Source of the DNA: a virus
DNA: 29,828 bases
Direction: 5' to 3' (one strand)
Virus record (IMG/VR): IMGVR_UViG_3300032334_000809
Coordinates: 1 to 29,828 of that record
The notes beneath the pieces were generated by a model that saw only the letters and a program-made list of their open reading frames with translations, had not been told where the DNA came from and made no database searches. Every line of letters begins with the position of its first letter. Within the stretch, counting starts at the first letter, position 1. The position numbers were made by a program, and so were the translations under genes. Shown here piece after piece: positions 4,627 through 28,729 of this stretch.

Positions 4627-5247
4627 ATGGCAACTACAATAAATGGATTTTTTAGGGTATCAGACTTTCAAAATTCAATCAAAGCTGTGGTTCGTCCAAA
4701 CTATTTTATTGCTGAATTAAGTGGATATCAAAACAAACCATTTGCTATATTAAGTCCATATAAAAATAAAGAAATGTTTCCAATTGATCAAACATTCAAA
4801 TTTAGATGTGAAAAAGCTGAATTTCCCGGAAAAACACTTGCAACAAATGAAGACGTTGGTGGTGGCGGAACAACATTAAAACTTCCATATGATGTAACAT
4901 ATAACGACATTCAATTGTCTATCATATGTACTGAAGATAAAAAAGAAAGAATGTTTTTTGAGAATTGGACGAATTCAATTATCGGTGCTGCTGGATACGA
5001 TTATCTAGTAGGTAGTCAACTTTTTACACAGGGTCCAGGACTTGTTAATTATTATGAAGATTATGCAAAAGGGGTAAAACTTTCGGTTAAACAATTAAAT
5101 GCAAAAGCTGAAGTAATTATGAATTTTGTAATGCATGACATTTATCCGATTGCAATTTCAGCCATGAATGCTTCTTGGGATGAAACTAACTCTTATCAAA
5201 GATTCTCTGTCACACTAAATTATCGCTACTATACGTTATTCCCTTAA
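4627..5247 (+). CDS. 19: tail tube protein, gp19 family
   Basis: A 206-residue tube-fold protein. The core reads 'FKFRCEKAEFPGKTLAT', then 'LPYDVTYNDIQLSIICTEDKKER', 'FFENWTNSI', and ends with 'DIYPIAISAMNASWDETN' and 'YQRFSVTLNYRYY', the standard signature of T4-like tail tube and tube-initiator proteins. The stop-start arrangement with the upstream gene is TAA-ATG with no gap. It could be the main tube protein (gp19) or a tube initiator (gp54-like): T4 gp19 is 163 residues and gp54 is 320. Its place just before the chaperone-like genes and the tape measure matches where long-tailed phages place their tube gene. Confidence 0.7.
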   Translation: MATTINGFFRVSDFQNSIKAVVRPNYFIAELSGYQNKPFAILSPYKNKEMFPIDQTFKFRCEKAEFPGKTLATNEDVGGGGTTLKLPYDVTYNDIQLSIICTEDKKERMFFENWTNSIIGAAGYDYLVGSQLFTQGPGLVNYYEDYAKGVKLSVKQLNAKAEVIMNFVMHDIYPIAISAMNASWDETNSYQRFSVTLNYRYYTLFP

Positions 5248-5284: not shown

Positions 5285-6031
5285 ATGCCTTTACCTAAAA
5301 TTAATTCGCCTATCTTTGAATTGATTCTACCTTCAACAAAACAAGTTGTTAAGTATAGACCTTTTCTTGTCAAAGAACAAAAGATTCTTTTGATTGCTGG
5401 AGAGTCAAACGATCAGAATGCTAATCTAATCGCAATCAAACAAATCATCAATAATTGTGCAATCGACAAGATTGATGTAGAAAAACTTCCAACTTTTGAT
5501 TTAGAATATTTCTTTATCAATCTAAGAGCAAGGTCTATTGGAGAAAAAATAGAATTGCGTATGCGTCATCGAACTGGATACAATGATGAAGGTGTCGAAT
5601 GTGATCATACAACAATGGTTAGTTTAGATTTAAATGAAATTGAAGTTGATCAAGAGATTGGACACACAGACAATATTATTTTAGACGAAGAAAATCAAGT
5701 TGGAATTAAAATGAAATACCCAACACTTGATGATGCAAGTTTAAAAAATCTAAACAAAAAATCTAAACATCAAATGGATAACGCAATGGATGCAATTATA
5801 AATTGTGTCGAATACATTTATGATAAAGAAGAAATTTACAAGATTGAAGATATTTCGAAAAAAGAATTGCTTGAATTTATCGAGAATCTTTCACAAGAAC
5901 AGTTTTTGAAAATCAACAAATTTTTTACTTCAATGCCTAAAGTCAAAAAAGAAATTGAATGGAAATGCGATGGATGCGGATCACACGATAAAGTTACACT
6001 AGAAGGAATGTCGAGTTTTTTCGTATTGTGA
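5285..6031 (+). CDS. 26: baseplate hub assembly protein gp26-like (T4_baseplate family)
   Basis: A 248-residue protein. The start is taken at ATG 5285 because GGAG lies seven bases upstream. The in-frame TTG at 5273 is inside that leader. The N-terminus 'PLPKINSPIFELILPS' with 'YRPFLVKEQKILL', followed by 'IINNCAID', 'DLEYFFINLRARSIGE', is the signature of the T4-like baseplate assembly family (gp26 in cyanophages). The C-terminus has a CxxC pair (WKCDGCG) as in a zinc knuckle. The gene comes after the tube gene and before the tape-measure gene, the position used by tail-assembly chaperones in siphoviruses. It ends with a slippery heptamer five codons before its stop (see 6016-6022). Confidence 0.7.
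   Translation: MPLPKINSPIFELILPSTKQVVKYRPFLVKEQKILLIAGESNDQNANLIAIKQIINNCAIDKIDVEKLPTFDLEYFFINLRARSIGEKIELRMRHRTGYNDEGVECDHTTMVSLDLNEIEVDQEIGHTDNIILDEENQVGIKMKYPTLDDASLKNLNKKSKHQMDNAMDAIINCVEYIYDKEEIYKIEDISKKELLEFIENLSQEQFLKINKFFTSMPKVKKEIEWKCDGCGSHDKVTLEGMSSFFVL
6016..6022 (+). other. candidate -1 ribosomal frameshift site (T TTT TTC)
   Basis: The heptamer TTTTTTC lies in register with the gp26-like frame (AGT TTT TTC GTA TTG TGA), which is the X XXY YYZ arrangement for -1 slippage. A slip moves ribosomes into CGT ATT GTG ATG, exactly the frame of the next ORF, which stays open to 6222. A weak six-pair stem (6024-6040, two G-U pairs and two G-U ends included) follows closely. Slippage is inferred from sequence alone. 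Confidence 0.5.
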
Positions 6032-6222
6032 TGGGCAATGATAATTTAGCAAATTATTATAAAACTAATTTTGCTCTGATTCAGCATCATAAATATAGTT
6101 TAGAAGTGCTTGAAAATATGATTCCCTTTGAACGTGATTTATACTTAATGTTATTGGCTCAGCACATCGAAGAACAAAATAACAAAATAGAAGCACAAAA
6201 TCAAAGGGCTAGACAACGATGA
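6031..6222 (+). CDS. small gp51-like protein, or C-terminal extension by -1 frameshift
   Basis: A 63-residue helical, charged protein. The 'NFALIQHHKYSLEVLENMIPFERDLYLMLL' stretch resembles small proteins that follow gp26 in T4-like phages and are often called hub assembly catalyst gp51 or left unnamed. T4 gp51 itself is much longer (249 residues), so the name is not safe. The ATG overlaps the last base of the upstream stop (TGATG). No Shine-Dalgarno sequence lies within 15 bases. Independent initiation is therefore weak, and it may be made mainly as a -1 frameshift extension of the gp26-like protein, or by termination-reinitiation. The C-terminus overlaps the holin-like gene by four bases (ATGA). 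Confidence 0.65.
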   Translation: MGNDNLANYYKTNFALIQHHKYSLEVLENMIPFERDLYLMLLAQHIEEQNNKIEAQNQRARQR

Positions 6223-6677
6223 CAACAAAGCACCACCATCATAAAAAAGAAGACTGGATGAATAGCAAATGGCGCCCTATGATGGGGTGGTCATACATGG
6301 TAACTTGTATTGCTGATTTTATTATTTTTCCAATTTTGTGGTCGGTGCTTCAAGCAGTTCAGCACGGCAATGTTTCGAGTCAATGGAATCCAATCACGCT
6401 TCAAGGTGCTGGACTCTATCATCTAGCAATGGGAGCAGTTCTTGGAGTTGCTGCTTGGAGTCGTGGTCAAGAAAAGATTGCTGGTGCTAGTTCATTTTCA
6501 ACAAGTGTTGGTTCCCCATCACCATTTCAAAATCAACAACAAATATCTACTTTTAGTTCGGAGAAGATTGTAGATACTGTAACTCCCGTTAATCAGATTA
6601 ACAAACCCGCAAGACCAGTAGTTAAAAAGCCTACAGTAACTAATTCAAATCCTGATTCTGTTTTGGATAGAGACTAA
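6219..6677 (+). CDS. holin-like membrane protein (3TM holin family)
   Basis: A 152-residue protein with a cytoplasmic-looking N-terminus that carries four histidines and lysines (residues 5-10). Next come the motif W-R-P-M-M-G-W (18-24), a first membrane segment at about 24-45 and a second at about 64-80, then a Ser/Gln/Pro-rich tail of 70 residues. The W-R-P-x-x-G-W motif before membrane helix one is the hallmark of the 3TM holin family found in gene-transfer agents and marine phages. Only two helices are evident here. The gene is between the hub-assembly genes and the tape-measure gene, not with the endolysin at 22216. That makes a structural or assembly role possible as well as lysis. Start by ATGA overlap. 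Confidence 0.6.
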   Translation: MTTKHHHHKKEDWMNSKWRPMMGWSYMVTCIADFIIFPILWSVLQAVQHGNVSSQWNPITLQGAGLYHLAMGAVLGVAAWSRGQEKIAGASSFSTSVGSPSPFQNQQQISTFSSEKIVDTVTPVNQINKPARPVVKKPTVTNSNPDSVLDRD

Positions 6678-9600
6678 ATGGCTTCAATAGGAAACTATGC
6701 TTCAGCTTTAGCTGAAGCCGCAAGAAACTCCGTAAAAAGTTCCGCGACTGGAATAGGCGCAGCAATTAAGGGCGCAGCATTCTCAGAAATGCCTGGAGTG
6801 ACCAGTGCATATTCTTTCGCTCAAAATTTGAAAAATAGTGCCAGCTCTAAAACAGAAAGTCGAGGCGGCAATAAAGGTGGTGGAGGAGCAGCTTCATCTA
6901 GTAGTTCTTCAGATAGTTCAAATTTTAATGCTGCAGTTGTTCGCGAATTGCAATTAATCAATGAAAATATTCTTGAGCAAACTAGATTATTAAGATATCA
7001 AGTAGATTCTGCTAAAACAAAATCTCAATATGATGAAGAAAATGCTAGAGAACAAGCATTAAGAGATAGTAAATTATTAGATGCAATTAATAATCTCGGA
7101 AAAAACTCTGGTGGAGGAAAAGGTGGTGGTGGCGAAGACGGTAATGATGGTGGACTTTTAGACAAACTTGGTGGTTTGGCTGGTGGCATTGGTGGGCGTG
7201 GTGGGCGTGGTGGTATATCGTCAAAGCGTCGTGGAAGTGTTAAAGGGAAAATTGTAAAAGGTGCTGGTGCGGTTGGTCTTGGTCTCGGCGCATTATATGC
7301 ATATGATAGAGTAGCTAATGGCGGCGAATCAATTGCTGGTGTTGCTAAAGACTTAGCTCCAGGAGCAATTGGTGCTACTGTTGGCGGTCTCATCGGAATG
7401 ATTGGTGGTCCTATTGGAGTAGCCATTGGATCTGCTATTGGGGGAGCAATAGGTGATTCCGATTTCGGACGTAAGATGTTTGAAAAGATTCTTCCAGATT
7501 TAGAAAATTATGGAAAAATATTTAGTCAAAAATTCGGAGAAGTTAGTGCAAGTGTAACAAAAATATTTGATGATTTTGTTCCCACATTTAATGATATTAA
7601 AGGCACTATTACATCATCTTTTACAACTGCTACAGATTATGTAGTTTCTGCATTTGGCGGAATTAGAAAATCTGTAGAATCATCTTTTGGTGAAGTTAAG
7701 AACTGGTTCACTAATTTAAAATTTCCAGATTTAGGTCTAGGTCAAGTAACAAGAGACCCAAAACTAGCAAAAGAAGTTAACGCTGAAATGAACGCTCCAG
7801 CAAATCAAGCTGGAAACATTTTAGGAAATGTTCCAAATCCAATGGGGGGTAAAGCAGCAAAACAAGCTGCAATGAGAGCAGGAAATAAAACTACAGCAAC
7901 CGCATCAATTGCCACAACTATAGAACTCCAAACAGAAAATACAACTAAGCCGTCAAATAGTTATGGAAAGAATGCGACAAAAAATGCTCTTTATGCTAAA
8001 CAATTTTTTGAAAGCCAAGGATGGACACCAGAACAGGCTGCTGGTATTGTTGGTAATTTACAAATCGAATCTGGTCAAAATTTAAAAATAGATGCTATAG
8101 GTGATGGTGGAAAAGCATATGGAATTGCACAGTGGCACCCAGATCGTCAAGCAAAATTTGAAAAATTATTTGGTAAATCTATAAGAGAATCTAATCTTAC
8201 AGAGCAATTGCAGTTCATTCAATGGGAATTAAATAATAATGAAAAAAAAGCTGGCAATGCTTTAAGAACAGCAACAACTGCTGAACAAGCTGCTGCTATT
8301 TTTGATAAACAATATGAAAGATCAAGTGGCGATGCTATAGGAAAAAGAGTATTAATGGCTGCTGGATTGAGAGGCGAACCTTTAAGTATAGCTGAAGCAC
8401 CAAAACCAAAATTACCAGGATTCAATTCAGCAAGAGATAGTCAAGCAGCATATGATGCTATGCCAACAACTCCAGCATTTGCTGGTGGGGGATTTGGATC
8501 ATATAAAGAAGGTCCAAATCCAGAAGCTGATACGCCATTCTCTGGGTCAAAGATTCCAGAAAGTCCAAAGCCAAAAACTTCTCCATTGACTCAAAAGATG
8601 GAAGAAGTTAGAACTGAAATTCGTAAAGCATCAAATGCTACTATCAAAGTTGCTGAAAAAATTGGTAAAGAAACAGTAGACAATTTCAAAAATCTTGCAC
8701 AAAGTAGCGCAAGAATTGCAAATACGGTTGCTCCTAGAAATAGACCAATTCGTCCAATATTAAAAACTCCAGAACAAATCATTGCAGAAACAAATGCAAA
8801 TTTTGCAAAAGCATTTCAAAAGGCTGTTCCAAAAGCATTTAATCTCGCACTAAGACAAGCATTATTTCCTAAAGGTGTTGGTGTAAGTCAACAAGCTGCT
8901 GGTGGCGCATTGTTCCGCGGACAACAATTAAACAATATCTTTGGTATTAATAAAAGCGTAAACAAACTGGCGACAAGTCTATTTGGTAAACAATATGGAG
9001 CAATGTTTGCGCCGGCACTCAATAATCTAGCAACAGGTTATCTTGAAGCTGGTGCTCGCGCTGGAGGTAGACTTCTATTTGGCATGATCGGTGGAATGGG
9101 AGCTGAACAGAGCAATATTCTCACTGGTCAGATTCTTGGTAATTATGCAAGAGGTAATAAGAAACTTGCTGCTGAACAATTGATATACGGTACTACTGGT
9201 GTAGCTACTGGATATGAGACTGTCTTTGCTAAGTATGGATTCAAGAATCCAATGGAAGGCGTCAACTACATGGCAAACACTTTAGGTGCTGCCGTTAGTG
9301 ATCCTGTTGGTAGATTCATGGATCCAAATGCAAAGGCTTCTGAGTGGGTCGATCCAAGAACTGGTAAGAAAGTTAGTTTAAATAGTAAATCGTCATTTAC
9401 TACAGATGCTTATGGTAGATATAATGTTCCACAATCGCAGAATGGAAATAATGCTGCCGTTGGTCCTACGTGGACAAGTGGTTATGATAAAGAACCTACC
9501 GTCACTCCAATTGTTGGTGGAGACAAGGCATTAACTACTACAGATCCGATTGCTGAAGAAGCAAGAAAAAGACAAATACAACTTCTAGAACAACAAAATG

Positions 9601-11744
9601 ATCAAATCGCTGTTGATGCTGTTAGACGCGCAACCGACGCTGCTGAAGCAAAGTATGCAAATCAACAAGGTGATCAGGGAATCATTGGTAAACTTCAAGA
9701 AGTTATAACTGCAATATCTCAAGGTAGAGTTGGATCAGGATCTACTGCTGGGGGATCGCTTGGTTTTGGTGGTGGTTCTCCGGGATTTTTTGATCCTGGA
9801 GGTCCACTAGCAAATGTCGGTAACATGGCTCTCGATCTTGGTAGAGTCGCTGCGACTCAACAAATTTCTAAAGCATTGGGAGTTAGTGGAAAAAATCCAT
9901 ACACAGCAGCTCTTGCAAACTTTGCAATTAGTGAAGGTCTTAAATATGGGGGAAAACTTGCATATAATGCTGTGTTTGGAAATGCTACATTTGCTCAAGC
10001 TGCTGGTCAAACTGCTGGATATATTTCAAATGCATTTGGACTTGGTGGAACGCAAGCCGCAGCACCAATTGTCGATCTTGCCGGAACTGGATATGCGGGA
10101 GCAGCAACTGAAGGAGCGGCTACCGCCGGAAGTATGGCATCAACATTAGGAGCAACAGAAGCTACGGCTACTTGGGTTGCTGCTGAAGAAGGTGGAATGA
10201 TGGTACTTGCAGCTGAAGCTGAGGCTGCAGCAGCTGCAGCTGCTGCAGCTGAGGGGGGCGCACTTGCTCTTGCTGAGGGTGCGTCATTGTTAGGTCCAGT
10301 CGGCTGGGCTATTGCTGCTGTTGCTGTTATTGGTTCGATATTTGGTTGGTGGGATGATGATGAACCATATCAACCAAACGTAATAATGGAAAGAGTTATG
10401 CTTACTCGCGGCAATAATAATATTAATGCTATAGCACCATTATGGACTAATGATTTAGGATATCTAAAAGAAGAAGGCGTCAGGGCTTGGATGGCCATTT
10501 GTGATCAACTATTGAGAATTGGATTCAATGCATTTAAAGCAATGGAAGTTAGTGCTAAAAAAGCGACTAACTTGGGAGCACTTAATTCAGACGATTTGCC
10601 TTTTCATTATATGGTTTCTTGTGTTCAATCATGGCAATCAAATAGTGATGTTGTAATTGGATTTTTCAAAGGTGAACCTAAAGCAAGACAGAATGCATTT
10701 GCAAGTGGATTTGGAAGTTCTGGAGAAGTTGGTTTTATAAATTTTGGTAAAATAGATGCATTTGCAAAGTTAAATGCTAATGATGTTGCTAGAAGAATCG
10801 TTAAAAAAGTTGAAGAACTTTGGAAAAAATCATATACATCCAAAAACATAAGTGCAGATCTTACAAAAACTGCTGAAGCATTACAAAAAGTTAATTATAA
10901 GGCACTAGCTTCAGGATTGCTTGAAGCTACTGCAAGTAGAATAGACACATCATTATCTGAGACAGTTTGGGGTGATATGCAACCAAAAAATGGAATGACC
11001 GATGAGGGGTTTCCGATAAGAATGGTTTACGATCAAAGAACAGGTCAATGGACGCAGCAAGCTGACAATAGGTATGAGATGGTTGGCACTGGAAAATATG
11101 AACAGAAATATAGCGATGAATATGGCTGGCAAAATGTTGAAATTATGGAAAAGCGTCGTACTGGGTTAGGTCTTGTCATGGGATATGATAAGCTAGGAAG
11201 ACCGCTCTATGATTTGAACGATGACGGGAAACTAAGTGAAGCAGATTTCACAACAGATCGTGAACGTATAAAAACAGTTAATCCTAGTCAGAATGCAGAA
11301 ACAATCGGAAACTATATTGGACCAGCCGCTAGAAGGGTGTGGGATCAAGCAGGCAACACATTGGTGCAGGAAGAAGACACCCGTATTATGGGATTTAATA
11401 AGCTAGGAAAACCTATCTATGATTTGAACAATGACAGAAAACTAACTGCACAAGACTTCACATCAAATCTTGACAATATAAAAGCGATTATTCCTTCAGC
11501 AACTGCAAGAAATGTCGGAAACTATATTGCAGACTATTCTGTATCGGCCGCCGAGGCTGCCGCTCGGGCTGCATTGGGCCCTAATGCAGCGGGTGGAGCT
11601 AATGCAGCGGGTGGAACTAATGCCGTTGTTAACTCTGGAAACAAAATCACTAACAATAGTTCATCGACCACTATAATTAAACGCAATGACAGTCTTGATG
11701 TTCTAAGATCAGCATCTGCACAAACTGCAGTTCCGATTGGATAA
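6678..11744 (+). CDS. giant tape-measure-like protein with tail lysozyme domain
   Basis: A 1688-residue structural protein at the tape-measure position, downstream of tube and chaperone-like genes. In order: a Ser/Gly-rich N-terminus, a coiled segment (about 95-130), Gly/Arg-rich linker (150-185), hydrophobic Gly/Ala segments (about 191-209 and 228-259), and a lysozyme-like domain (about 426-565). That domain contains GIVGNLQIESGQ (Glu464 as likely catalytic acid) and YGIAQW at 481-486, as in the phage tail lysozyme family PF18013. Further on are helical Ala/Gln regions, a poly-Ala stretch (about 1178-1200) with a hydrophobic segment ending in GWW (1207-1226), and a C-terminal pair of EF-hand-like repeats (1501-1618). 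The lysozyme would cut peptidoglycan during DNA entry. It is far longer than T4 gp29 (590 residues), so only part can be the length ruler. A structural protein of unknown place is an alternative. Confidence 0.7.
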   Translation: MASIGNYASALAEAARNSVKSSATGIGAAIKGAAFSEMPGVTSAYSFAQNLKNSASSKTESRGGNKGGGGAASSSSSSDSSNFNAAVVRELQLINENILEQTRLLRYQVDSAKTKSQYDEENAREQALRDSKLLDAINNLGKNSGGGKGGGGEDGNDGGLLDKLGGLAGGIGGRGGRGGISSKRRGSVKGKIVKGAGAVGLGLGALYAYDRVANGGESIAGVAKDLAPGAIGATVGGLIGMIGGPIGVAIGSAIGGAIGDSDFGRKMFEKILPDLENYGKIFSQKFGEVSASVTKIFDDFVPTFNDIKGTITSSFTTATDYVVSAFGGIRKSVESSFGEVKNWFTNLKFPDLGLGQVTRDPKLAKEVNAEMNAPANQAGNILGNVPNPMGGKAAKQAAMRAGNKTTATASIATTIELQTENTTKPSNSYGKNATKNALYAKQFFESQGWTPEQAAGIVGNLQIESGQNLKIDAIGDGGKAYGIAQWHPDRQAKFEKLFGKSIRESNLTEQLQFIQWELNNNEKKAGNALRTATTAEQAAAIFDKQYERSSGDAIGKRVLMAAGLRGEPLSIAEAPKPKLPGFNSARDSQAAYDAMPTTPAFAGGGFGSYKEGPNPEADTPFSGSKIPESPKPKTSPLTQKMEEVRTEIRKASNATIKVAEKIGKETVDNFKNLAQSSARIANTVAPRNRPIRPILKTPEQIIAETNANFAKAFQKAVPKAFNLALRQALFPKGVGVSQQAAGGALFRGQQLNNIFGINKSVNKLATSLFGKQYGAMFAPALNNLATGYLEAGARAGGRLLFGMIGGMGAEQSNILTGQILGNYARGNKKLAAEQLIYGTTGVATGYETVFAKYGFKNPMEGVNYMANTLGAAVSDPVGRFMDPNAKASEWVDPRTGKKVSLNSKSSFTTDAYGRYNVPQSQNGNNAAVGPTWTSGYDKEPTVTPIVGGDKALTTTDPIAEEARKRQIQLLEQQNDQIAVDAVRRATDAAEAKYANQQGDQGIIGKLQEVITAISQGRVGSGSTAGGSLGFGGGSPGFFDPGGPLANVGNMALDLGRVAATQQISKALGVSGKNPYTAALANFAISEGLKYGGKLAYNAVFGNATFAQAAGQTAGYISNAFGLGGTQAAAPIVDLAGTGYAGAATEGAATAGSMASTLGATEATATWVAAEEGGMMVLAAEAEAAAAAAAAAEGGALALAEGASLLGPVGWAIAAVAVIGSIFGWWDDDEPYQPNVIMERVMLTRGNNNINAIAPLWTNDLGYLKEEGVRAWMAICDQLLRIGFNAFKAMEVSAKKATNLGALNSDDLPFHYMVSCVQSWQSNSDVVIGFFKGEPKARQNAFASGFGSSGEVGFINFGKIDAFAKLNANDVARRIVKKVEELWKKSYTSKNISADLTKTAEALQKVNYKALASGLLEATASRIDTSLSETVWGDMQPKNGMTDEGFPIRMVYDQRTGQWTQQADNRYEMVGTGKYEQKYSDEYGWQNVEIMEKRRTGLGLVMGYDKLGRPLYDLNDDGKLSEADFTTDRERIKTVNPSQNAETIGNYIGPAARRVWDQAGNTLVQEEDTRIMGFNKLGKPIYDLNNDRKLTAQDFTSNLDNIKAIIPSATARNVGNYIADYSVSAAEAAARAALGPNAAGGANAAGGTNAVVNSGNKITNNSSSTTIIKRNDSLDVLRSASAQTAVPIG
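11178..11530 (+). repeat. tandem EF-hand/dockerin-like repeat, 210-bp period
   Basis: Two direct copies within the tape-measure-like gene. Copy 1 starts at 11178, copy 2 at 11388. Both read G[Y/F][D/N]KLG[R/K]P[L/I]YDLN, then a 12-residue loop, and close with GNYI. Loop 1 (residues 1512-1523) is D-L-N-D-D-G-K-L-S-E-A-D, a full calcium-loop pattern. Loop 2 (1582-1593) has Arg at the usual glycine place. Confidence 0.75.
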
Positions 11745-13588: not shown

Positions 13589-14575
13589 TTACGCTGAAGT
13601 CAAAATTGCATTTACCACACGGGAGTAATCTTGCCATACACTTTCTTTACTATACGCTTTATAAAGTGGCTCTAGTGGAGCTATTCCATTTGCAATGATC
13701 TGCTTGATGCTACTATTTTCAATCAATACACTTGGTTCCAGATCCCAATAGTTCCGCATTTGATGACTTCTTGTTACCGCGATTGGTCGCTTTGCTGCTA
13801 ATGCATAATCTGGACTACTTGCTAATCCACATCCATCTAAGTAATCATAAAAGTAACAATTAATGGTGTTTTGTGCTAGTAGATCGATAATTTGTTGCGT
13901 ATCCAAAAGATCGTGCGTAATGATAACATCAATTCCTGGTTTTCTAATGATTTGCTTCACTTCATTTGCGCGAGCGTATGCATTGCTTCCTTTGTATCCA
14001 TGAATTAAGTCTTCGTAGAATCCGAAAGGAATGTGTAGTCTTAGCGTAGCGTCATCAAACTCTTCTTGCACCTTATGTGCGAGTCTAGCAATTCCTTTAT
14101 GTGGTGGCCCAAAGCCTTGAAATCCAATGATTGGTTTTTCTGGTTCAACATAAGATACTGTTGGGGTTCCCGGAAGTAATCGATTCGTTGTAAATACATG
14201 CTTCGTTTCTTTTACGCTAGGATCATCTGCGATAATGTACTGCCAATCATGATTTGTTTCTGGTCTAAATGAATCAGCAATTGGCTGACTCATGTCATGC
14301 ATGATTCTTGCATGTTTGATATGTGGAAATGGTGCTCGCATTTGATAATCGTCCATCCACGGAGTAGTGCCTGGAGCATAATTGTAAATCACAACTTGCG
14401 GATCAAATGATAGAATTCTTTCTTGAGTTTCATGTAAACTATCTGTGTAGATCATGTCAAAATGTAACTCTGGATGTTGCAATAAAACTTTGCCAGTCAC
14501 ATCACCCATCAAGCCAATTCCACAAGCAGCCTTTGCTCCAAGTGTTTGTGTAACGAATAGAACTTTAGTTTTCAT
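13589..14575 (-). CDS. glycosyltransferase-like protein (paralogue A)
   Basis: A 328-residue protein with two Rossmann-like halves (GT-B arrangement): N-terminal 'KVLFVTQTLGAKAACGIGL', 'FDPQVVIYNYAPGTTPWM', and a C-terminal half from 'KPIIGFQGFGPPHKGI' to 'GLASSPDYALAAKRPIAVT'. The last segment resembles the nucleotide-sugar binding region of GT4-like transferases. Closest relatives in the window are the genes at 15646 and 16590. All three share IG-x-x-G with a lysine after it, an 'N-C/L-Y-F/M-Y' strand and 'ALAAKRPIAV'. The likely task is sugar transfer to a phage or host glycan, but donor and acceptor are unknown. The start overlaps the epimerase stop as ATGA. Confidence 0.7.
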   Translation of the reverse strand: MKTKVLFVTQTLGAKAACGIGLMGDVTGKVLLQHPELHFDMIYTDSLHETQERILSFDPQVVIYNYAPGTTPWMDDYQMRAPFPHIKHARIMHDMSQPIADSFRPETNHDWQYIIADDPSVKETKHVFTTNRLLPGTPTVSYVEPEKPIIGFQGFGPPHKGIARLAHKVQEEFDDATLRLHIPFGFYEDLIHGYKGSNAYARANEVKQIIRKPGIDVIITHDLLDTQQIIDLLAQNTINCYFYDYLDGCGLASSPDYALAAKRPIAVTRSHQMRNYWDLEPSVLIENSSIKQIIANGIAPLEPLYKAYSKESVWQDYSRVVNAILTSA

Positions 14576-15540
14576 TTTTGTTTTCCCACTTGCTCATAGA
14601 TCCATTCATATGTAATCTCTAAACCTTTTTTGAGATTTTGTTCTGGAGACCATTTTAATTTTTCTGCAATTAATTCATTGTTGCTATTGCGACCACGAAC
14701 GCCAGTCGGACCATCAATGTGTTTCTTACGGATTGTTTTACCAGCAATATATGCAACAAGATCGACTGTATCATTGATACTAATCATTTGATCTGCACCA
14801 ATGTTTACTGGACCATGAAATGTTTCACTTTGCATCAAACGGCGAACAGCTTCAACGCATTCTCCAATGTATAGAAAACTTCTTGTCTGTTCGCCATCTC
14901 CCCAAATTTCAATTTCATCACCATCTTTTGCTTTTGCAATCTTTCTACAAATAGCTGCAGGAAACTTTTCTTTTCCTCCGTCCCATGTTCCGTATGGTCC
15001 AAAGATATTGTGAAACCGCGCTACTTTGTTTTGCATCCCATGTTGACGATTGTATGCATGAAATAGTCTCTCGGAGAATAGTTTCTCCCAACCATATTCA
15101 GAGTCTGGATGTGCTGGATAAGCACTTGCTTCTCTACAGTCTGGATTCTCATTCGTAGACTGCAACTCTTCGTTATAAACGCAAGCACTACTACTAAAGA
15201 ATACTTTTTTAATTCCCATCTCATTACATCGATGGAGTACATTTAGATTAATACTTGCGCTATTATGCATAACGTCTGCGTCATATAGATTTGTGTTGAT
15301 ATAACCTGCACCGCCCATGTCAGCCGCCAATTGATACACTTCATCGAACCAGTGATCGATAACTCTTTGCACATCAGACTGTAAAGTTAAATCTGCAAGT
15401 TGAAAATCATCTGCGTGAGTGTATTCATGTTCATGTAGTTTTTTATCTACGCCACGAACCCAATAGCCTTCTGATTTCAAACGCTTAACTATGTGACCGC
15501 CAATGAAGCCACCAGCGCCTAATACTAATGCAGTTTTCAT
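14572..15540 (-). CDS. GDP-mannose 3,5-epimerase
   Basis: A 322-residue extended short-chain dehydrogenase. The NAD loop is GAGGFIG (8-14). The family hallmarks of GDP-mannose 3,5-epimerase are all present: 'LAADMGGAGYI' (71-81), SSSACVYNE with catalytic Cys120, Tyr149-x-x-x-Lys153, and 'RFHNIFGPYGTWDGGKEKFP' with Lys192 as the second acid/base, then 'EIWGDGEQTRSFLYI' and 'GVRGRNSNN'. The enzyme converts GDP-D-mannose to GDP-L-galactose (and GDP-L-gulose). In plants it feeds ascorbate and cell-wall L-galactose; in a phage, a GDP-L-sugar donor for the neighbouring transferases is the natural reading. The start overlaps the stop of a 40-codon remnant (ATGA). Confidence 0.9.
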   Translation of the reverse strand: MKTALVLGAGGFIGGHIVKRLKSEGYWVRGVDKKLHEHEYTHADDFQLADLTLQSDVQRVIDHWFDEVYQLAADMGGAGYINTNLYDADVMHNSASINLNVLHRCNEMGIKKVFFSSSACVYNEELQSTNENPDCREASAYPAHPDSEYGWEKLFSERLFHAYNRQHGMQNKVARFHNIFGPYGTWDGGKEKFPAAICRKIAKAKDGDEIEIWGDGEQTRSFLYIGECVEAVRRLMQSETFHGPVNIGADQMISINDTVDLVAYIAGKTIRKKHIDGPTGVRGRNSNNELIAEKLKWSPEQNLKKGLEITYEWIYEQVGKQK

Positions 15541-15659
15541 TTGTCTAATAGTCCTTCGTACAATGTCAATAATTTAAATGGAAGTTTCTGATATTCATTA
15601 ATGACCACTTTCGTAAATGGTGTAAATTCACCTTGTAATACGATACTAAATTTTAACAT
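15537..15659 (-). pseudogene. 40-codon remnant of a WavE-like glycosyltransferase
   Basis: A minus-strand ORF of 40 residues (begins MLKFSIVLQGEFTPFTKVV) between paralogue B and the epimerase. It overlaps the upstream gene by 14 bases and the downstream start by ATGA. The N-terminus 'FSIVLQGEFTPFTKVVINEY' followed by KLPF resembles the first strand-helix of WavE-like LPS glycosyltransferases (hydrophobic strand, QG-x-x, T, helix, LP). After that the similarity stops, so the gene seems to be truncated to its first 35 codons. The remaining frame may be kept because it couples translation to the epimerase. Chance resemblance cannot be excluded. Confidence 0.45.
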
Positions 15660-16593
15660 GATTCCGTTTAAAAAAATCGTCAAAGATACCTTCGTACTGC
15701 TCTAAAAATGTTTTAGCATTCCACATATCGTAATATTTTTCTACTGGAGTTATTCCACTATTAATAATATCTTTAATTTTTGTTTTATCTATGTTGATCT
15801 GATCTGATATAATGTGTCTGAAATATCCTGCGGTGTTTACGCCAATAGGCTTCTTTGCCGCTAATGCTTTATCTATACTACCACTCACGCCATCAAGATC
15901 ATAGTTATTATACATGTAAAGATTAATATCATTATTATTGAGCCATTTTACATTATCATATTCTGTCAGTCGCTCAACAGTAAAATTTAATTCTACATTA
16001 GGCTTTGCTAATGATCTCAATCTATTTAATCTATGTTCTATTCCATCTCTATTTACACCAACATATTCACCCACACTCCAGTGAATATTAAATACAACTG
16101 GTTCATCGAACTGATCGTTGACCAAATTTAGCATTGACTTTATGTTCTTACCATCATGTCCTATGCCGCTAGTTCCTATCTTCAGTACGCCGTTAGGTTT
16201 ATTATACACGATATCATCATAATATGCAATAGGTCTATAGCCAGAATGAAAGTTTTTAAGTCCATAATTCATTGACGGATCTACGGTAATGAATTCATCT
16301 ATGCCAGTAAAATCAATTAGTTCCGAATTTAATGTATGTCCGTGAATTAAGAATTGTGGCTTTAGAGTCTCTGCAAAAACTTTTGTCGTACACCACGGCA
16401 TAGTTACAGAGTGCCAATTATAGATGATTAAATCCATACCATGTGTCTTTGCTAAGAATTCAGGATAACTAGATGCAGTTACAAAATGAAATTTATACTT
16501 TTTACTATGTTTTAATATATCATATGCATTAATGCCCCAATAGTAAATGCCACATCCTTGTACTGGTCCACTAACTAATGCAATCTGTTTCAT
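15646..16593 (-). CDS. glycosyltransferase-like protein (paralogue B)
   Basis: A 315-residue protein. The N-terminal half has 'KQIALVSGPVQGCGIYYWG' and 'MDLIIYNWHSVTMPWC'. The C-terminal half has 'LKIGTSGIGHDGKNI', 'VVFNIHWSVGEYVG', 'NDINLYMYNNYDLDGVSG' and 'KALAAKKPIGV', then a KI-x-DII-x-SG-I-x-PVEKYY stretch. These line up in order with the genes at 13589 and 16590, giving a three-member tandem family of GT-B-like proteins with low mutual identity. Translation is coupled upstream by ATGA (16590-16593). Which sugar it moves is unknown. Confidence 0.68.
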   Translation of the reverse strand: MKQIALVSGPVQGCGIYYWGINAYDILKHSKKYKFHFVTASSYPEFLAKTHGMDLIIYNWHSVTMPWCTTKVFAETLKPQFLIHGHTLNSELIDFTGIDEFITVDPSMNYGLKNFHSGYRPIAYYDDIVYNKPNGVLKIGTSGIGHDGKNIKSMLNLVNDQFDEPVVFNIHWSVGEYVGVNRDGIEHRLNRLRSLAKPNVELNFTVERLTEYDNVKWLNNNDINLYMYNNYDLDGVSGSIDKALAAKKPIGVNTAGYFRHIISDQINIDKTKIKDIINSGITPVEKYYDMWNAKTFLEQYEGIFDDFFKRNHVKI

Positions 16594-17561
16594 TTATTTT
16601 CTCCGCTAAAATGTATTTCTTTAAATCTATTAACGCAAGATTCACTACTCCATGCTTCTCTCATTTTAGCAATTCCATCTTGACTTTTTAATATAGAATC
16701 TTTAAATGACCATTCTGGAAATGGGCGAATGTAGTCATATAGGTGTCTAAATGTATAATTATTAAAAACAGCAATTGGTGCACCAGATGATATAGATTGA
16801 TCTGCTGTAGCCGCCAAACCAGCCATTTGACGATCATACATAAAACAATTCAAATCATTACTAGAACACCAGCGTACTAGGTCACTATTGGACATATAGT
16901 CTCTAGTAATTTGTAATTCAATTCCTGGACGTACATTATTCTCACAACTTTCTTTAATTCGAAAGAACATATCTTCTGGGCAATAATTTGCTATAGGTAT
17001 ATTGATTCTTACTAAAGCCCGTTCAAATTCAACACCTACTCTATGCACTATAAAATCAAAATTTTTATTTTGTGTTGCATATCCAAAACTACCTATAACA
17101 GGTACTTCAGGAACTTCTAGCACCTTTTTAATTGGTAGAATATTGACAATAGGCCGCGGAAAAGAATGTAGTGAGGAATCATTAGATTTAAATGTTGGAT
17201 CAATAACTAGATAGTCATCAAATCCAATTTTTGACATTCTAAAATTTTGTGGAAATGCATTATTTGGATCCACTTCTAGAACTATAGCATATTTTCTACC
17301 CGATAAGTTAGATAGCTTTTTTGCATCAACCGATTCCATATCACGCATTGCAGATGGATGATAATTGAAAATATAAAAGTCATACAGTTCTGAAAATCCA
17401 TCTGCAACTATACGACCATTGTGTAAATCATCAAGAGATAGTTTGTCAATTTCTATGTAATCTAAGTTCCATTCATTAGATTGAAGTGATTCATTAATTA
17501 ATAGTCCACTACTGTATATACTGCACTGTGCTTTTCTTGTGTTTATAAAAATGCCATTCAT
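16590..17561 (-). CDS. glycosyltransferase-like protein (paralogue C)
   Basis: A 323-residue protein of the same family as its neighbours at 15646 and 13589. Shared landmarks are 'YDFYIFNYHPSAMRDM' in the N-terminal half, 'VPVIGSFGYATQNKNFDF', 'LVRINIPIANYCPEDMF' and 'NDLNCFMYDRQMAGLAATAD' in the C-terminal half, followed by the 'SSGAPIAVF' strand-loop. The last 50 residues keep the helix that in the paralogues ends in a tyrosine-rich patch. It is the most divergent of the three. The start overlaps the stop of the GT9-like gene by ATGA. Substrate and acceptor unknown. Confidence 0.65.
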   Translation of the reverse strand: MNGIFINTRKAQCSIYSSGLLINESLQSNEWNLDYIEIDKLSLDDLHNGRIVADGFSELYDFYIFNYHPSAMRDMESVDAKKLSNLSGRKYAIVLEVDPNNAFPQNFRMSKIGFDDYLVIDPTFKSNDSSLHSFPRPIVNILPIKKVLEVPEVPVIGSFGYATQNKNFDFIVHRVGVEFERALVRINIPIANYCPEDMFFRIKESCENNVRPGIELQITRDYMSNSDLVRWCSSNDLNCFMYDRQMAGLAATADQSISSGAPIAVFNNYTFRHLYDYIRPFPEWSFKDSILKSQDGIAKMREAWSSESCVNRFKEIHFSGENK

Positions 17562-18469
17562 AATTGTTTTGTATGTTTTCTATCAGAAGAATATGTTGGT
17601 GTCAGAATTAAATCTGTTATGATTTTAATTGCAACGTTATCATCTATTGTATCACTAAAATATGAGTTTGTCAAATAGTCACCCTCACCCATTAAGCAAT
17701 CACGCATCTTATGCGAAAAGCACATGAATGTTTTTTGATAGTTATTCATGTTTTCTTTGATATGTGCGTAAGTGAATGGTCCACTATTCTTTCCAATAAT
17801 CAATTTAGCGAACATACTTAGATAAGCAATCTGATTTAAATTTCCTGTAGAAGCATTAAATAAATCATCAGTATATGTTACGTTTGGTAACTTAACATCA
17901 ACTTTATGTGTAATGAGAAATTGTTTTTCTGGAAATCTTTTAGCAAGTTCAAAAATAATATTTCGCATAATGCCCATGCTACTCTGTTCGCTTTGTTGAA
18001 AACCGTTACAAACTAAAATAATTTCTTTAGTATCAACTCTAGACAAATAGTTATCTGCTTCTGTAAGATCGAACTTTTGAAAATCGATAGAAGGATGATA
18101 GTATGAATAATCGCCCTTCATTTCTAGATTCAATGCTTGATAAAATTCTTTCCACATGTCATGCAAACAATGAAAATTTGCATGATCTCTTTCTCTTAGA
18201 TACTTACCAATCCAGCAACCAACCCAAGTATTGATGTAAAGAATATCATCTACTTGTGCTATTGGAATAAGTGTATCGATAGGATGAATTGAACTTAAAG
18301 GAACATGCTCACAATTTAAATCAGAAATAATGTTTGGATGTTTATCATGTGCATATTTGAAAGTGATTCCGTTAGGATATCTTGAAATGATATCCCTAAC
18401 GTATTCTTTATTGATAAAGCAGTCACCGTTTCTCCAACGATTGAAGAATGTTATGTTGGTGATGTTCAT
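17558..18469 (-). CDS. GT9-like (heptosyltransferase-type) glycosyltransferase
   Basis: A 303-residue GT-B-type protein. It lacks a signal peptide. The second half begins with 'KEIILVCNGFQQSEQSSMG' (148-166), then 'IFELAKRFPEKQFLITHK', 'NLNQIAYLSMFAKLIIGKNSGP' in pieces, with IIGKNSGP at 224-231. The IIG-x-x-SGP segment with a preceding A-x-L-x-x-x helix is the NDP-heptose-binding pattern of the GT9 (ADP-heptose:LPS heptosyltransferase) group and of related nucleoside-sugar enzymes. It sits in the glycan cassette between the C-methyltransferase-like gene and the three paralogous transferases, with ATGA overlaps on both sides. Donor unknown. A non-enzymatic GT9-fold protein is possible. Confidence 0.6.
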   Translation of the reverse strand: MNITNITFFNRWRNGDCFINKEYVRDIISRYPNGITFKYAHDKHPNIISDLNCEHVPLSSIHPIDTLIPIAQVDDILYINTWVGCWIGKYLRERDHANFHCLHDMWKEFYQALNLEMKGDYSYYHPSIDFQKFDLTEADNYLSRVDTKEIILVCNGFQQSEQSSMGIMRNIIFELAKRFPEKQFLITHKVDVKLPNVTYTDDLFNASTGNLNQIAYLSMFAKLIIGKNSGPFTYAHIKENMNNYQKTFMCFSHKMRDCLMGEGDYLTNSYFSDTIDDNVAIKIITDLILTPTYSSDRKHTKQL

Positions 18470-19695
18470 CTGGAGATAATTTCAAAAAATGGACAAGGAA
18501 CAATAAACGCACCGCCATCATCTAGAAATGCTTTCTCTCTTACTTGAAACTCGCTAATAAAATGCCAGGGAAGAACCAAAGCATAGTCTGGCTTTGCTTT
18601 TCTCATTTCATCTTCGCTAATGATGGGAATGTTTGAACCAATTGTCTTGTAACCAAACTTGTATGGACTACGCTCTGCAATTGCTGTAACATGCGTATGA
18701 TCAATACCAAAGTATTGTAGCAATGTATTGCCTTTGGTGCTTGCTCCGTAACCATACACGCTCTTACCTTTGCTCTTTGCATTGTCAATGAATTCAAGAA
18801 CATCAACTTTCAAATCGTCAAGTCGGTGCTTGAATGAATTCCAAATAATCGGACTTGAAATGTCGACCACATTGTTTTCATAGTTAAGAATTGATTCTAC
18901 ACGATAGTCACAAACATCACGCAAAGGTGATGATCCGAAACTTGTAATTGATGCAGTTTCTTTTTGGAAATAGATTCTAAAACTTCCACCATTAGTGTCA
19001 TTCAAACTACAATCAACAATATGGAATCCATGCTGAGAGAACAACTTGTTAATACTCTTCAGATCATAGTAGTAAACATGCTCATGACAAATATTATCAA
19101 ATGCTAGTTGATTAATCATCAAAGGAGTATAACTCATTTGAAGAACTGCAACTCCATCGTCATCAAGAACATCATACATGTCTTTTACAAATGGATGTGG
19201 ATCATCTAGGTCATAAAACATTGCAATACAAGTAATGACTTTTGCTTTCTTACCAGCAAATTTAGTTCTTTCCCATGCAGATTTACTAAAGTAATCTTGC
19301 ACAACTGTAGCAACTTTGCTACTCTCTGCATAGAATGAATCGTCGCATGGATCAATACCGACTTTGTTTAGATTGTCTGGAACTGCTTTCAATAGCGTTC
19401 CATCATTACATGCAATGTCAAGCCAAATGTCATCATCTTTTAGTTTAACGCGGGATGTAATTTCTTTCACGATACCTTGCAATTCAAGTGTCATGCTTGT
19501 ATTGATTGCGCTGCGATACCAATACTTGCCCCACATGGTAGATGGTGGAGCAATATCTTTTGGATCCAAACGTGGTGCGCCCAATTCTTCATCAAGATAT
19601 AAATCGAGACTATATTTTTGACGACCCTGCATTTCGCTATCGTCTTTGATGAAATCACTTACATAATGATTTCCAAGTTCAAGCAGTTTTTTCAT
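18466..19695 (-). CDS. NDP-sugar C-methyltransferase-like protein
   Basis: A 409-residue protein of the TylCIII/NovU type (class I SAM domain followed by a Rossmann-like C-terminal domain). The ATG at 19695 is preferred: GGAG lies six bases upstream, and the next upstream ATG (19725) overlaps the DUF6165 gene more deeply. The SAM loop is DIACNDGT (93-100). The family's catalytic-region motif CHEHVYYY is at 203-210, and the C-terminal signature GYGASTKGNT at 315-324. The usual N-terminal zinc-binding region with several cysteines is absent: 'LGNHYVSDFI' fits that family's start, but no CxxC is seen. These enzymes methylate 4-keto-6-deoxy sugars, so the product of the Gmd encoded upstream is a plausible substrate. 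Confidence 0.78.
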   Translation of the reverse strand: MKKLLELGNHYVSDFIKDDSEMQGRQKYSLDLYLDEELGAPRLDPKDIAPPSTMWGKYWYRSAINTSMTLELQGIVKEITSRVKLKDDDIWLDIACNDGTLLKAVPDNLNKVGIDPCDDSFYAESSKVATVVQDYFSKSAWERTKFAGKKAKVITCIAMFYDLDDPHPFVKDMYDVLDDDGVAVLQMSYTPLMINQLAFDNICHEHVYYYDLKSINKLFSQHGFHIVDCSLNDTNGGSFRIYFQKETASITSFGSSPLRDVCDYRVESILNYENNVVDISSPIIWNSFKHRLDDLKVDVLEFIDNAKSKGKSVYGYGASTKGNTLLQYFGIDHTHVTAIAERSPYKFGYKTIGSNIPIISEDEMRKAKPDYALVLPWHFISEFQVREKAFLDDGGAFIVPCPFFEIISR

Positions 19696-20173
19696 TAGTT
19701 TCTCCATGGTAAGACTTTTCTTCAATCAATTCAGAATTGCAAAGTAAATTAATTTCTTTCTTAATTCTTGCACGTTCATCATTAGTTTTAGGAATCAATT
19801 TAGCAACATTGATAAAATGTTCTCCATAAGATTGTGCAGCAATTAGATCACGAATATCATCCTCAAGATTCCAGATTTTGTAATTTACAACGAATAGTTC
19901 ATTGAAAAGTTTATTAACAACATCTTTCGTTTGCTTATATGTATCTAGCGAAATTAAAAGACGATGTTCTTTCTCAATATTGTTTAGCTTTGCTTCATCT
20001 TTGATTTCAAGCATTTTGATTTGAAGAATTGTAATTCGATCAAATAGATCACCGACACTTCCTGGAATATATACAGCTCCTAGTGATGGAGATTTGATTA
20101 GAGTTTTTTCCAACGAACCAAATTCTCTTTTGTAAACTGTTTTACCTTTATCAGGACTTTCATAGATTTGCAT
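19679..20173 (-). CDS. DUF6165 family protein
   Basis: A 164-residue protein between Gmd and the methyltransferase-like gene. The ATG at 20173 is chosen because it follows GGAG at ten bases; an upstream ATG in the Gmd gene would lie in overlapping sequence. The pattern '[19 protein letters not shown]', a long helix '[14 protein letters not shown]', then '[20 protein letters not shown]' and '[24 protein letters not shown]' is that of DUF6165, a family seen next to sugar-biosynthesis genes. No catalytic residues are known. It ends 17 bases into the next gene. Its function in glycan synthesis is guessed from company only. Confidence 0.72.
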
Positions 20174-21191
20174 TTTTCTGTTTCTCCATTTCACTTTCAC
20201 ACATTTCGAATACCAAGTCTTTGAACGTGTACTCTGGCTTCCAGTTTAGCACTTTCTTAGCTTTACTGCAATCTCCGAAAATCGTTGGCACTTCTGCTGG
20301 ACGATAGAAATCTTTATTGACTTCAATAATTTTCTCGCCAGTCGAGGTGTTGATACCAACTTCACTTAATCCTTCACCGCGCCATTCAATTTTGAATCCA
20401 AGATACTCTGCAACATCTTCGCAAAAATCGCGAACTGAATGCTCTTCGTCGCTGGAGATAACATAATCATCTGGCGTGTCTTGTTGTAGCATTGCCCACA
20501 TTGCGCGGACATAATCTTTAGCATGGCCCCAATCGCGGCGAGCATTTAGATTTCCTAATTGTAGGATTGGCTGTAATCCAAGATGGGTACGAATCATTCC
20601 TTGAACGATTTTGCGAGTAACAAACTCTGGTCCACGTCGTGGACTTTCATGATTGAATAGAATGCCATTACATGCGAAGAGATTAAAACTTTCGCGATAG
20701 TTTACTACGATCCAGTAGCCGTAGAGTTTAGCTACAGCATATGGTGATCGTGGATAAAATGTAGTAGCTTCTGTTTGTGGAGTCTCTTTTACTTTGCCAT
20801 ACAATTCACTTGTTGATGCTTGATAAAACTTTACTTGCTTTTCTTTCGCGAGTGTCTTAACAGCTTCAAGTAATTTCAAAACACCGATTGCATTTACATC
20901 ACCAGTGTATGTTGGACAATCATAGCTTACGCTAACGTGACTTTGTGCACCAAGATTATAAACCTCATCTGGTTTTACTTTGACAATGATGGATTCTAGA
21001 TTTGCAGAATCAGTCAAATCGCCATAATGAAATTTGATTTTATGCTTGATGGATTCAATATTACTAGTATTAATACCAGTGCTAGAACGCCTAACAATTC
21101 CGTGAACTTCGTATCCTTTATCAAGTAGAAGTTCTGCGAGATAGCTTCCGTCTTGACCAGTAATACCAGTAATTAATGCAACTTTACTCAT
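20160..21191 (-). CDS. gmd: GDP-mannose 4,6-dehydratase
   Basis: A 343-residue enzyme of the extended short-chain dehydrogenase family, converting GDP-D-mannose to GDP-4-keto-6-deoxy-D-mannose. Visible are the NADP loop [10 protein letters not shown] (9-18), VRRSS near 33, '[12 protein letters not shown]' (79-90), the Thr-Ser-Glu catalytic part (127-129), Tyr151-x-x-x-Lys155, and 'FNHESPRRG' (180-188), which are diagnostic for Gmd. '[15 protein letters not shown]' follows and the C-terminus (YRPAEVP, then [15 protein letters not shown]) is complete. Length is normal for the family. No Fcl or Rmd reductase gene follows in this window. First gene of the cassette, 28 bases downstream of a sigma70-like -10 box. 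Confidence 0.97.
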
Positions 21192-21283: not shown

Positions 21284-21568
21284 ATGGAATTTACCAGCAT
21301 TACTACTATCGTCGCTGATGTTGGATTTCCAATTGCTGCAGCTATCGCTGCTGGTTATTTTGTATTGCTCTGTCTCAAATTCATTTTATCTGGAGTCACC
21401 TCTTCTATCAAGTCATTAGAGGAGATTACGAAAAGTTTGGATAAACGGATCGACATAATGAATTCCGAAGTAGAAAGAATTGACATTAAGATATCTCATG
21501 CTTTAGGATTACAACCCAACTTTGGTAGAATTGCGAGGGCCCATAATAATGACCTTAGAAAAGACTAA
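21284..21568 (+). CDS. small membrane/coiled-coil protein (lysis module, 1 of 3)
   Basis: A 94-residue protein. One membrane helix at about 13-36 (DVGFPIAAAIAAGYFVLLCL), then a helical charged segment (about 42-72) that would form a coiled coil: 'SLEEITKSLDKRIDIMNSEVERID' is split by regular hydrophobic positions. Strong Shine-Dalgarno AAGGAG before ATG. It is the first of three similar small genes and faces the endolysin gene at 22216. Similarity to the third gene (both carry GFPI-AA--GYFV then a heptad segment ending in -LGLQ or -LQLRG) implies duplication. Roles as holin, anti-holin or spanin-like component are possible, none proven. Confidence 0.7.
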   Translation: MEFTSITTIVADVGFPIAAAIAAGYFVLLCLKFILSGVTSSIKSLEEITKSLDKRIDIMNSEVERIDIKISHALGLQPNFGRIARAHNNDLRKD

Positions 21569-21587
21569 CTCAAAAGAGGAATCTCAA

Positions 21588-21935
21588 ATGTCTGTAGAAA
21601 AATTAGAAGAAGCACACGCAAAGGGACAGTTAATCGAGAAATTAACTTTTGCTTTATTACCACTACTATTTTCATGCGTCGTTTACTTAATGTCTGCACT
21701 TCAAAACTTGTCGCACGATGTTACCATTCTTAATGGAAAAATATCTCTTGTTGTCACATCAGATAATAAGCAAGCAAACAACTCTGGTGCTGAATTAGCC
21801 CGAGAGAAATTAAGACAAGACTTAGAAAAAGAAATTCAACGTAATAGAGATATGATTGCAGAGAATAGAATGCATATCGCAATTCTAGAAGAAAAACTTT
21901 CTATGACAAAAAGAATTCAACCGACTAAAGAATAA
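21588..21935 (+). CDS. small membrane/coiled-coil protein (lysis module, 2 of 3)
   Basis: A 115-residue protein. The start is ATG 21588 with AGAGGA seven bases upstream. An upstream in-frame start would overlap the preceding gene and lacks such a site. One membrane segment at about 18-38 (KLTFALLPLLFSCVVYLMSAL) is followed by Ser/Asn linker and a long charged helix (about 66-105) with heptad leucines and isoleucines. It lies between two related proteins of the same design but shares no clear sequence with them. Co-transcription is likely: TAATG overlap with the next gene. A holin or regulator of lysis timing is one reading. Confidence 0.65.
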   Translation: MSVEKLEEAHAKGQLIEKLTFALLPLLFSCVVYLMSALQNLSHDVTILNGKISLVVTSDNKQANNSGAELAREKLRQDLEKEIQRNRDMIAENRMHIAILEEKLSMTKRIQPTKE

Positions 21936-22225
21936 TGCACATCGTTGAACTAATTAACAAATACGGCTTTCCAATTATTGCTGCATTTGGTCTTGGATAC
22001 TTTGTTCACTATACATGGATTTGGGTGACGCTAGAAGTCAAACCAGTAGTTACTAGTGCAAACAAATCTCTAATCAATCTTATTGATAGAATTAGAACTT
22101 TAGATAATGATTTAATTCGACTCAACGAAAAAGTTGATACAGTTCTTCAGCTTCGTGGTAAGACAATTGAAATTGAAAGAATAGAAGCCGATAAACAAAT
22201 CAACAATAAAAATCATCAAGCATAG
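21935..22225 (+). CDS. small membrane/coiled-coil protein (lysis module, 3 of 3)
   Basis: A 96-residue protein with a membrane segment at about 10-32 (YGFPIIAAFGLGYFVHYTWIW) and a heptad-like helix (about 38-75, 'NLIDRIRTLDNDLIRLNEKVD' in its centre), ending in a polar tail. Clearly related in layout to the protein at 21284. Similar small proteins occur in T4-like marine phages without known function. TAATG couples it to the upstream gene. Its 3' end overlaps the endolysin gene on the other strand by ten bases, so the lysis genes are convergent. Confidence 0.7.
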   Translation: MHIVELINKYGFPIIAAFGLGYFVHYTWIWVTLEVKPVVTSANKSLINLIDRIRTLDNDLIRLNEKVDTVLQLRGKTIEIERIEADKQINNKNHQA

Positions 22226-27911: not shown

Positions 27912-28160
27912 TTATTCTTTAATTTCAAATCTATACTTGATCATTTCAATACATTTACCAACAGTCCAAGAAATATCACCAGAATCATCATCTTCGAAGT
28001 TTGAAATTCCAATCATTGCAACTTGTGCGAGACAATCTTGTATTATCAACTCAGCGAATTCCCTATCCCTAATCTCTTGCAAAATTATTTGATCGGCTAC
28101 ATCCAGTGTGTCTGCATATGAAGTAGCATCATCAGCAAGTTTTTTAATTCGTTCGTTCAT
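27912..28160 (-). CDS. MNERI-family small protein (copy 1)
   Basis: An 82-residue acidic protein, first identified by its start MNERIKKLAD and the central 'FAELIIQDCL' with 'VGKCIEMIKYRFEIKE' at the end. The same pattern (MNERI-x-x-L-x-x-x-A ... FAELI-x-x-x-C) recurs in the genes at 28516 and 28730, so they are paralogues. The start overlaps the stop of the gene at 28157 (ATGA). Function unknown. Helical throughout, no metal site. Confidence 0.7.
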   Translation of the reverse strand: MNERIKKLADDATSYADTLDVADQIILQEIRDREFAELIIQDCLAQVAMIGISNFEDDDSGDISWTVGKCIEMIKYRFEIKE

Positions 28161-28519
28161 TGTTCATCCCATGTAATTTTTGGATTAGCTTGTTCGTATA
28201 GTTCGACTAGTTGATCCAATGTCCAAACGTCATCAGTTTCAAAAGTTTCAAGCCAATTACCAAATCTAGCCCAATCCTCACTCCGCATGGGTGGCACACC
28301 TATTTCCTCGCCATGCGGATCGTCAGTTCCTCTTACATCAATCCTGCCACAACTATAATGTGTGGTAATTTCTTTAGACTCATATTGATCACCAGCCTTA
28401 AGTCCACTAAAAGCAGAGTCCTCCTCCAGTGTGATCATTTTAGTTTCAACAAGGCCACGTTGTTCATACCAATTTATACTGACTGGACCCATCCAATTAG
28501 TGCTATATCTGATTTTCAC
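28157..28519 (-). CDS. conserved phage protein, unknown
   Basis: A 120-residue protein between two MNERI copies, with ATGA overlaps at both ends. 'MKIRYSTNWMGPVSINWYEQ', 'YSCGRIDVRG', 'GVPPMRSEDWARFGNWLETFETD' and 'NPKITWDEQ' form a pattern conserved in T4-like phages. Nothing in it points to a catalytic site. Because it is locked between paralogues, it was probably inherited with them as a unit. Confidence 0.7.
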   Translation of the reverse strand: MKIRYSTNWMGPVSINWYEQRGLVETKMITLEEDSAFSGLKAGDQYESKEITTHYSCGRIDVRGTDDPHGEEIGVPPMRSEDWARFGNWLETFETDDVWTLDQLVELYEQANPKITWDEQ

Positions 28520-28725
28520 TCTTCAACTCCAAAATGTTCTTTAATCAGTTGTGCAGTTTCCCAAAGTGGATCAGCCTCATGATAACTGTACTCGTGTCTA
28601 TTAACAATGTCCAAACAGTCTCGCACAATCAATTCGGCGAACCTTTGAAAATTATCACCTTGGATGTGCAGGTCTACTTCGGAAAATTCAGCCTCTTCCG
28701 CTAGTTCTCGAATTCGTTCGTTCAT
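28516..28725 (-). CDS. MNERI-family small protein (copy 2)
   Basis: A 69-residue paralogue of the genes at 27912 and 28730: MNERIRELAEEAEFSEVDLH, FAELIVRDCL, then KEHFGVEE at the end. It shares a 23-base identical start region with copy 3. AACGAGATG-type spacing leaves only four bases between the upstream stop and this start. Function unknown; acidic and helical. Confidence 0.7.
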   Translation of the reverse strand: MNERIRELAEEAEFSEVDLHIQGDNFQRFAELIVRDCLDIVNRHEYSYHEADPLWETAQLIKEHFGVEE

Positions 28726-28729
28726 CTCG

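Follow-up and report, generated by a model that had tools for sequence, protein, structure and literature searches.

The locus described here raises the question of whether two neighbouring tail genes are joined by a ribosomal slip in relatives of T4. The window is the whole stretch of DNA analysed, positions 1-29,828 of virus record IMGVR_UViG_3300032334_000809, and all coordinates count within these 29,828 nt. An earlier note on this DNA proposed that a T run near the end of a gp26-like gene joins it to a gp51-like ORF, and that gp26 and gp51 are the counterpart of lambda G and GT. The lambda pair also consists of two overlapping ORFs between the tube and tape measure genes, with a -1 slip shortly before the first one ends and an extra C-terminal domain on the long form. 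T4 has been listed as an exception to G-T frameshifting (Atkins et al. 2016, PMC5009743). We find it very probable, chiefly from the sequence and its conservation, that two tail assembly chaperone forms arise through a programmed -1 ribosomal frameshift at T_TTT_TTC.

Slippery site and reading frames in the window

The gp26-like ORF was read from ATG 5285 to TGA 6029-6031, and its 3' codons are AGT TTT TTC GTA TTG TGA. These codons place T TTT TTC in the X XXY YYZ register, so that the heptamer described in the earlier note does lie in register near the end of the gene (Table 1). A step of one base back at the heptamer reads ...SSFF-RIVMGNDNLANYY..., and this frame stays open until TGA 6220-6222; the next ORF is exactly in the -1 frame, as had been claimed. 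The starts available to that ORF, GTG 6028 and ATG 6031, lie within a TGATG overlap, and inspection of the window sequence found no Shine-Dalgarno sequence before either one, again in agreement with the note. Both features of the gp26/gp51 family are present, the PF12322/phrog_150 domain and the phrog_634 C-terminal part, and T4 gp26 and gp51 match the same models. PF12322 is named T4_baseplate and phrog_634 is labelled baseplate hub assembly catalyst.

The note gave the gene order as tube, pair, tape measure. The tube gene is indeed upstream (phrog_45) and the likely tape measure gene downstream (phrog_9570), with the pair between them, but a holin-like ORF intervenes before the latter. The match of this downstream gene to phrog_9570, tail length tape measure, covers residues 353-553 only, which is the lysozyme region alone.

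Table 1. Coordinates of the tail genes and of the proposed frameshift elements in the window.
Feature	Position	Strand	Evidence
Tail tube protein gene, upstream neighbour	4627..5247	+	phrog_45 tail tube 7.5e-33; PF23849 Phage_TTP_2 2.8e-7
gp26-like gene, proposed short tail assembly chaperone form (TAC-N), 248 aa	5285..6031	+	PF12322 1.5e-62; phrog_150 1.2e-68
AGAAGGA, anti-Shine-Dalgarno-pairing element 8 nt before slippery site, proposed stimulator	6001..6007	+	pairing -5.7 kcal/mol in window
Slippery heptamer T_TTT_TTC	6016..6022	+	sequence; T6 invariant in 124/124 dereplicated relatives
-1 frame continuation (RIVMGNDNL... to TGA 6220-6222), gp51-like C-terminal part of proposed long form (TAC-NC)	6022..6222	+	-1 frame in relatives; T4 gp51 aligns across junction
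gp51-like ORF as conventionally annotated, 63 aa from ATG 6031	6031..6222	+	phrog_634 1e-24, profile positions 60-119 of 121
Holin-like membrane protein gene, separating the pair from the tape measure gene	6219..6677	+	PF11351 GTA_holin_3TM 4e-6
Likely tail tape measure gene, 1688 aa, phage lysozyme domain	6678..11744	+	phrog_9570 1.3e-39; PF18013 3.2e-29

Conservation of the junction in relatives

The 124 dereplicated representatives with the window-type layout were gathered by gp26 similarity and the T run was not used as a criterion, so the count that follows is not circular: all 124 carry an in-register T6 just before the gp26 stop. The stop itself varies from 0 to 9 nt after the slip while T6 is unchanged, and the run is T7 rather than T6 in 34 representatives. 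In-register TTTTTTC was found in 80/80 close viral loci, where 6 or 9 nt separate the start of the last codon from the stop, and gp51, wherever it was matched among these loci, is in the -1 frame. Named one-copy phages that belong neither to the Tevenvirinae nor to the Ackermannviridae-like group combine T6 with an open -1 frame in 16/16 cases, as do 82/82 more distant loci from a wider scan. TTTTTTC, TTTTTTT or TTTTTTG occurs in named phages of cyanobacteria, Vibrio (KVP40), Aeromonas (Aeh1), Pseudomonas (pf16, Milchi), Stenotrophomonas, Rhizobium, Agrobacterium, Ochrobactrum and Methylophilales. The comparison suggested in the earlier note thus turned up neither a random codon at the heptamer nor a 0/+1 relation, and the slippery site is common to nearly all relatives with the window-type gene layout.

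Phenylalanine codons elsewhere in these gp26 genes number 945 TTT and 474 TTC. In the GC-rich phages pf16, RL2RES and Atu_ph04, TTT makes up 7-9% of the other Phe codons, yet TTT is used at the slip. As a control, 327 other ORFs from the same loci, each 100 aa or longer, were scanned; one had T6 in register within the last four codons, and T6 together with an open -1 frame was found in none. The slippery-site observation is real and far beyond chance. T4-type gp26 keeps a GLKEFF ending with codons TTC TTT or TTC TTC, and T6 was absent from it in 9/9 loci where gp26 was found; the FF pair alone therefore does not force a T run.

In most of the 124 representatives a purine-rich, Shine-Dalgarno-like element starts 12-15 nt upstream of the heptamer, and the anti-SD-pairing element lies about 8-10 nt upstream of the slip across relatives. 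Mean pairing was -6.6 kcal/mol, compared with -4.7 for synonymous randomisations (124 representatives; Wilcoxon p = 2e-14), and pairing of -5 or stronger was reached by 80% at the element versus 5% at in-gene control positions. The Glu codon at the element is GAG 63 times and GAA 29 times, against 582 and 2276 elsewhere (p = 2e-22), and GAG is preferred even in comparison with other Glu-Gly pairs (15 : 80, p = 1e-13). The pairing and the codon choice show selection on the element over and above the amino acids it encodes, as in dnaX, and would indicate ribosomal slippage of the dnaX kind. The E. coli dnaX -1 frameshift has a Shine-Dalgarno-like stimulator about 10 nt upstream and a homopolymer-type heptamer; it differs from the window in that its run is of As rather than Ts, and a conserved downstream stem-loop was not found for the window lineage. 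No downstream stem-loop or pseudoknot was found in the window (z = 0.42 and -0.06), and the alifold consensus over the 124 sequences was empty; mean downstream folding in these sequences (z = -1.25) was lower than at the in-gene control (-0.50). The heptamer of lambda G/GT, GGGAAAG, differs from that of the window lineage, which also has the selected upstream element.

The same junctions could in principle be read as translational coupling, with termination at TGA, a restart at the overlapping ATG or GTG, two separate proteins and an incidental T run. The TGATG overlap in the window, with both starts at the stop, would permit this and could add some separate product there, and two genes are annotated in databases for many relatives. 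However, 71 of the 124 representatives have no ATG, GTG or TTG in the first eight -1 codons (86 have no ATG), and for these a slip is the simplest route to the C-terminal part. Several annotated gp51 starts, such as those of loci L089 and L091, fall inside the conserved part, and coupling leaves the invariance of T6 unexplained, a point that counts because the T4-type genes show that the FF pair needs no T6. We consider coupling very unlikely as the explanation. Transcriptional slippage, in which the T run would gain a base in the mRNA and give the same fusion, is also very unlikely. The run is a homopolymer and reaches T7 in the 34 representatives mentioned, but most runs have only six Ts, which is short for RNA polymerase slippage, and an anti-SD element selected at a fixed spacing fits a ribosomal mechanism.

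Deposited gp51 annotations in L089, L091, L094 and L101 begin well within the conserved part, apparently because there is no start codon closer to the junction in frame; judging from the reading frames, they are likely misannotated frameshift products. Many genomes miss the -1 part or give it an entry of its own, named 'baseplate hub assembly catalyst', whose start is doubtful.

Two-gene and heptamer-free phages

T4 gene 51 encodes 249 aa and is divergent to gene 26. T4 gp51 matches PF12322 over residues 1-201 (3.9e-52) and phrog_150 along its entire length; its match to phrog_634 is C-terminal. By profile comparison, T4 gp26 and gp51 are paralogues (4.8e-13), and T4 gp51 aligns end to end with the window-type gp26::gp51 fusion, across the slip point (E = 2.5e-21). 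The apparent lack of a frameshift in T4 is thus accounted for by a second gene copy, in which gp51 is homologous to the whole fusion. T4 genes 26 and 51 belong to the same family as the window gene, PF12322, but differ from the window in being a divergently transcribed pair with no slippery run, whose ratio is not set by frameshifting. A phrog_150 match at the C-terminus was read early in the work as a sign of natural fusions; this was ruled out, as T4 gp51 itself matches phrog_150 throughout.

Among 37 records, 30 (the window included) have one PF12322 gene and seven T4-type records have two, a count that is firmest for complete named genomes because virus-contig records may be fragments. Of the 30 one-copy records, 25 have T6 and five, which are Ackermannviridae-like, do not. 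In a tree, the one-copy group excludes both T4 gp26 and T4 gp51, each of which makes up a single group; long branches meet there, and the tree does not order the events. The data show why T4 differs: there the chaperone forms would come from two genes, while marine and environmental relatives would still slip. The split between one and two copies is clean, so that exchanges of the two solutions are testable in cultured phages.

The Ackermannviridae and Vibrio phage D528 have one gp26 copy and a gp51-like part in the -1 frame, with no T6. Their junction is conserved in the Ackermannviridae as GA(A/G)ATTTTCAT(T/C)TAAT (loci L104-L121; L094, L095), and a canonical slippery heptamer was absent from the Ackermannviridae junctions. 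Most Ackermannviridae have ATT where others carry a start codon, and the junction is usually without a start. A slip on the tetramer T_TTC is a possible route to the fusion in this group. A tentative scenario, to which we give slightly less than even credence, is that a dnaX-like, SD-stimulated frameshift was ancestral in the T4 superfamily, that T4-type phages duplicated the gene, and that the Ackermannviridae and their kin reduced the heptamer to T_TTC, still needing the -1 fusion. In Salmonella phage 38 (L085, 2441-3181), the annotated gp26 is cut short at an AAAAAA run relative to its kin, pointing to either an error in sequencing or a genuine change of frame.

Proposed function of the two products

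Under the inferred frameshift, whose efficiency is likewise inferred, most ribosomes would terminate at 6029 and give the short gp26-like form of 248 aa, and some would slip one base back, probably aided by the upstream anti-SD pairing, to give a fusion of 312 aa bearing the gp51-like C-terminal part. If the pair works as lambda gpG/gpGT does, the short form would coat the tape measure protein, and the long form, present in the minority, would recruit tail tube subunits. In T4 and closely related phages the same two forms would come from the separate paralogous genes 26 and 51.

The gp26-like protein was modelled with AlphaFold2 (pLDDT 91). Its best solved matches were 3fgx, with Z = 7.9, and 2ob9, the tail assembly chaperone of HK97, with Z = 7.6, both below Z = 8; the 2ob9 match covers 84 of 107 residues, and unrelated chains gave Z = 2.0. 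On its own, Foldseek placed 2ob9 first, yet with an E-value of only 1.6. The resemblance to the HK97 chaperone backs the chaperone reading as support and not as proof. The T4-type gp51 model (pLDDT 88) gave no match in the PDB above Z = 4.6 and did not recover 2ob9, and it matched gp26 proteins in a viral library. A sequence search for solved relatives of gp26 or T4 gp51 returned none.

The frameshift could also be real and the pair act in baseplate hub assembly instead of tape measure and tube chaperoning. Names such as 'baseplate hub' and 'hub assembly catalyst' in the databases point this way. A review of T4 counts both gp26 and gp51 among the chaperones of hub assembly and refers to genetic studies that put gp26 in the hub (PMC3004832). 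The same review describes the finished T4 particle as being without gp51; the pair is located between the tube and tape measure genes, the predicted gp26 fold may resemble that of the HK97 chaperone, and, so far as the papers citing the reassignment relate it, the T4-like chaperone genes have been reassigned (PMC10885494, PMC12846349). We regard a hub role as improbable.

That gp26/gp51 is the counterpart of G/GT, as the earlier note proposed, is supported by the conserved slippery run, the -1 frame and the homology of T4 gp51 to the fusion, but it is not new. The central inference was already made by Vladimirov, Gautam and Davidson (2022, Virology 566:9-15), who treated the tail assembly chaperone genes of T4-like phages, as cited in the PRFect paper (PMC10885494) and the phage Adele paper (PMC12846349). 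According to these two papers, that work described short and long forms, poly-T slippery signals in the TAC-N genes of T4-like phages, and separate short and fusion genes in some of them, all of which resemble what we find or propose here. Two details may be new, namely the SD element upstream of the slip site and the junction of the Ackermannviridae.

Several other regions of the window drew attention. By eye, the minus strand at 13589-21191 holds a nucleotide-sugar and glycosyl/methyl transferase-like block in a phage structural contig, including a GDP-mannose dehydratase-like ORF at 20160-21191 (-). Three small membrane-protein ORFs follow in succession at 21284-22225 (+), the first of which resembles the third (GFPIAAAIAAGYFV, GFPIIAAFGLGYFV). 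Three small adjacent ORFs at 27912-28936 (-) share an MNERI(R/K)xL...FAELI pattern and look like a tandem paralogue family.
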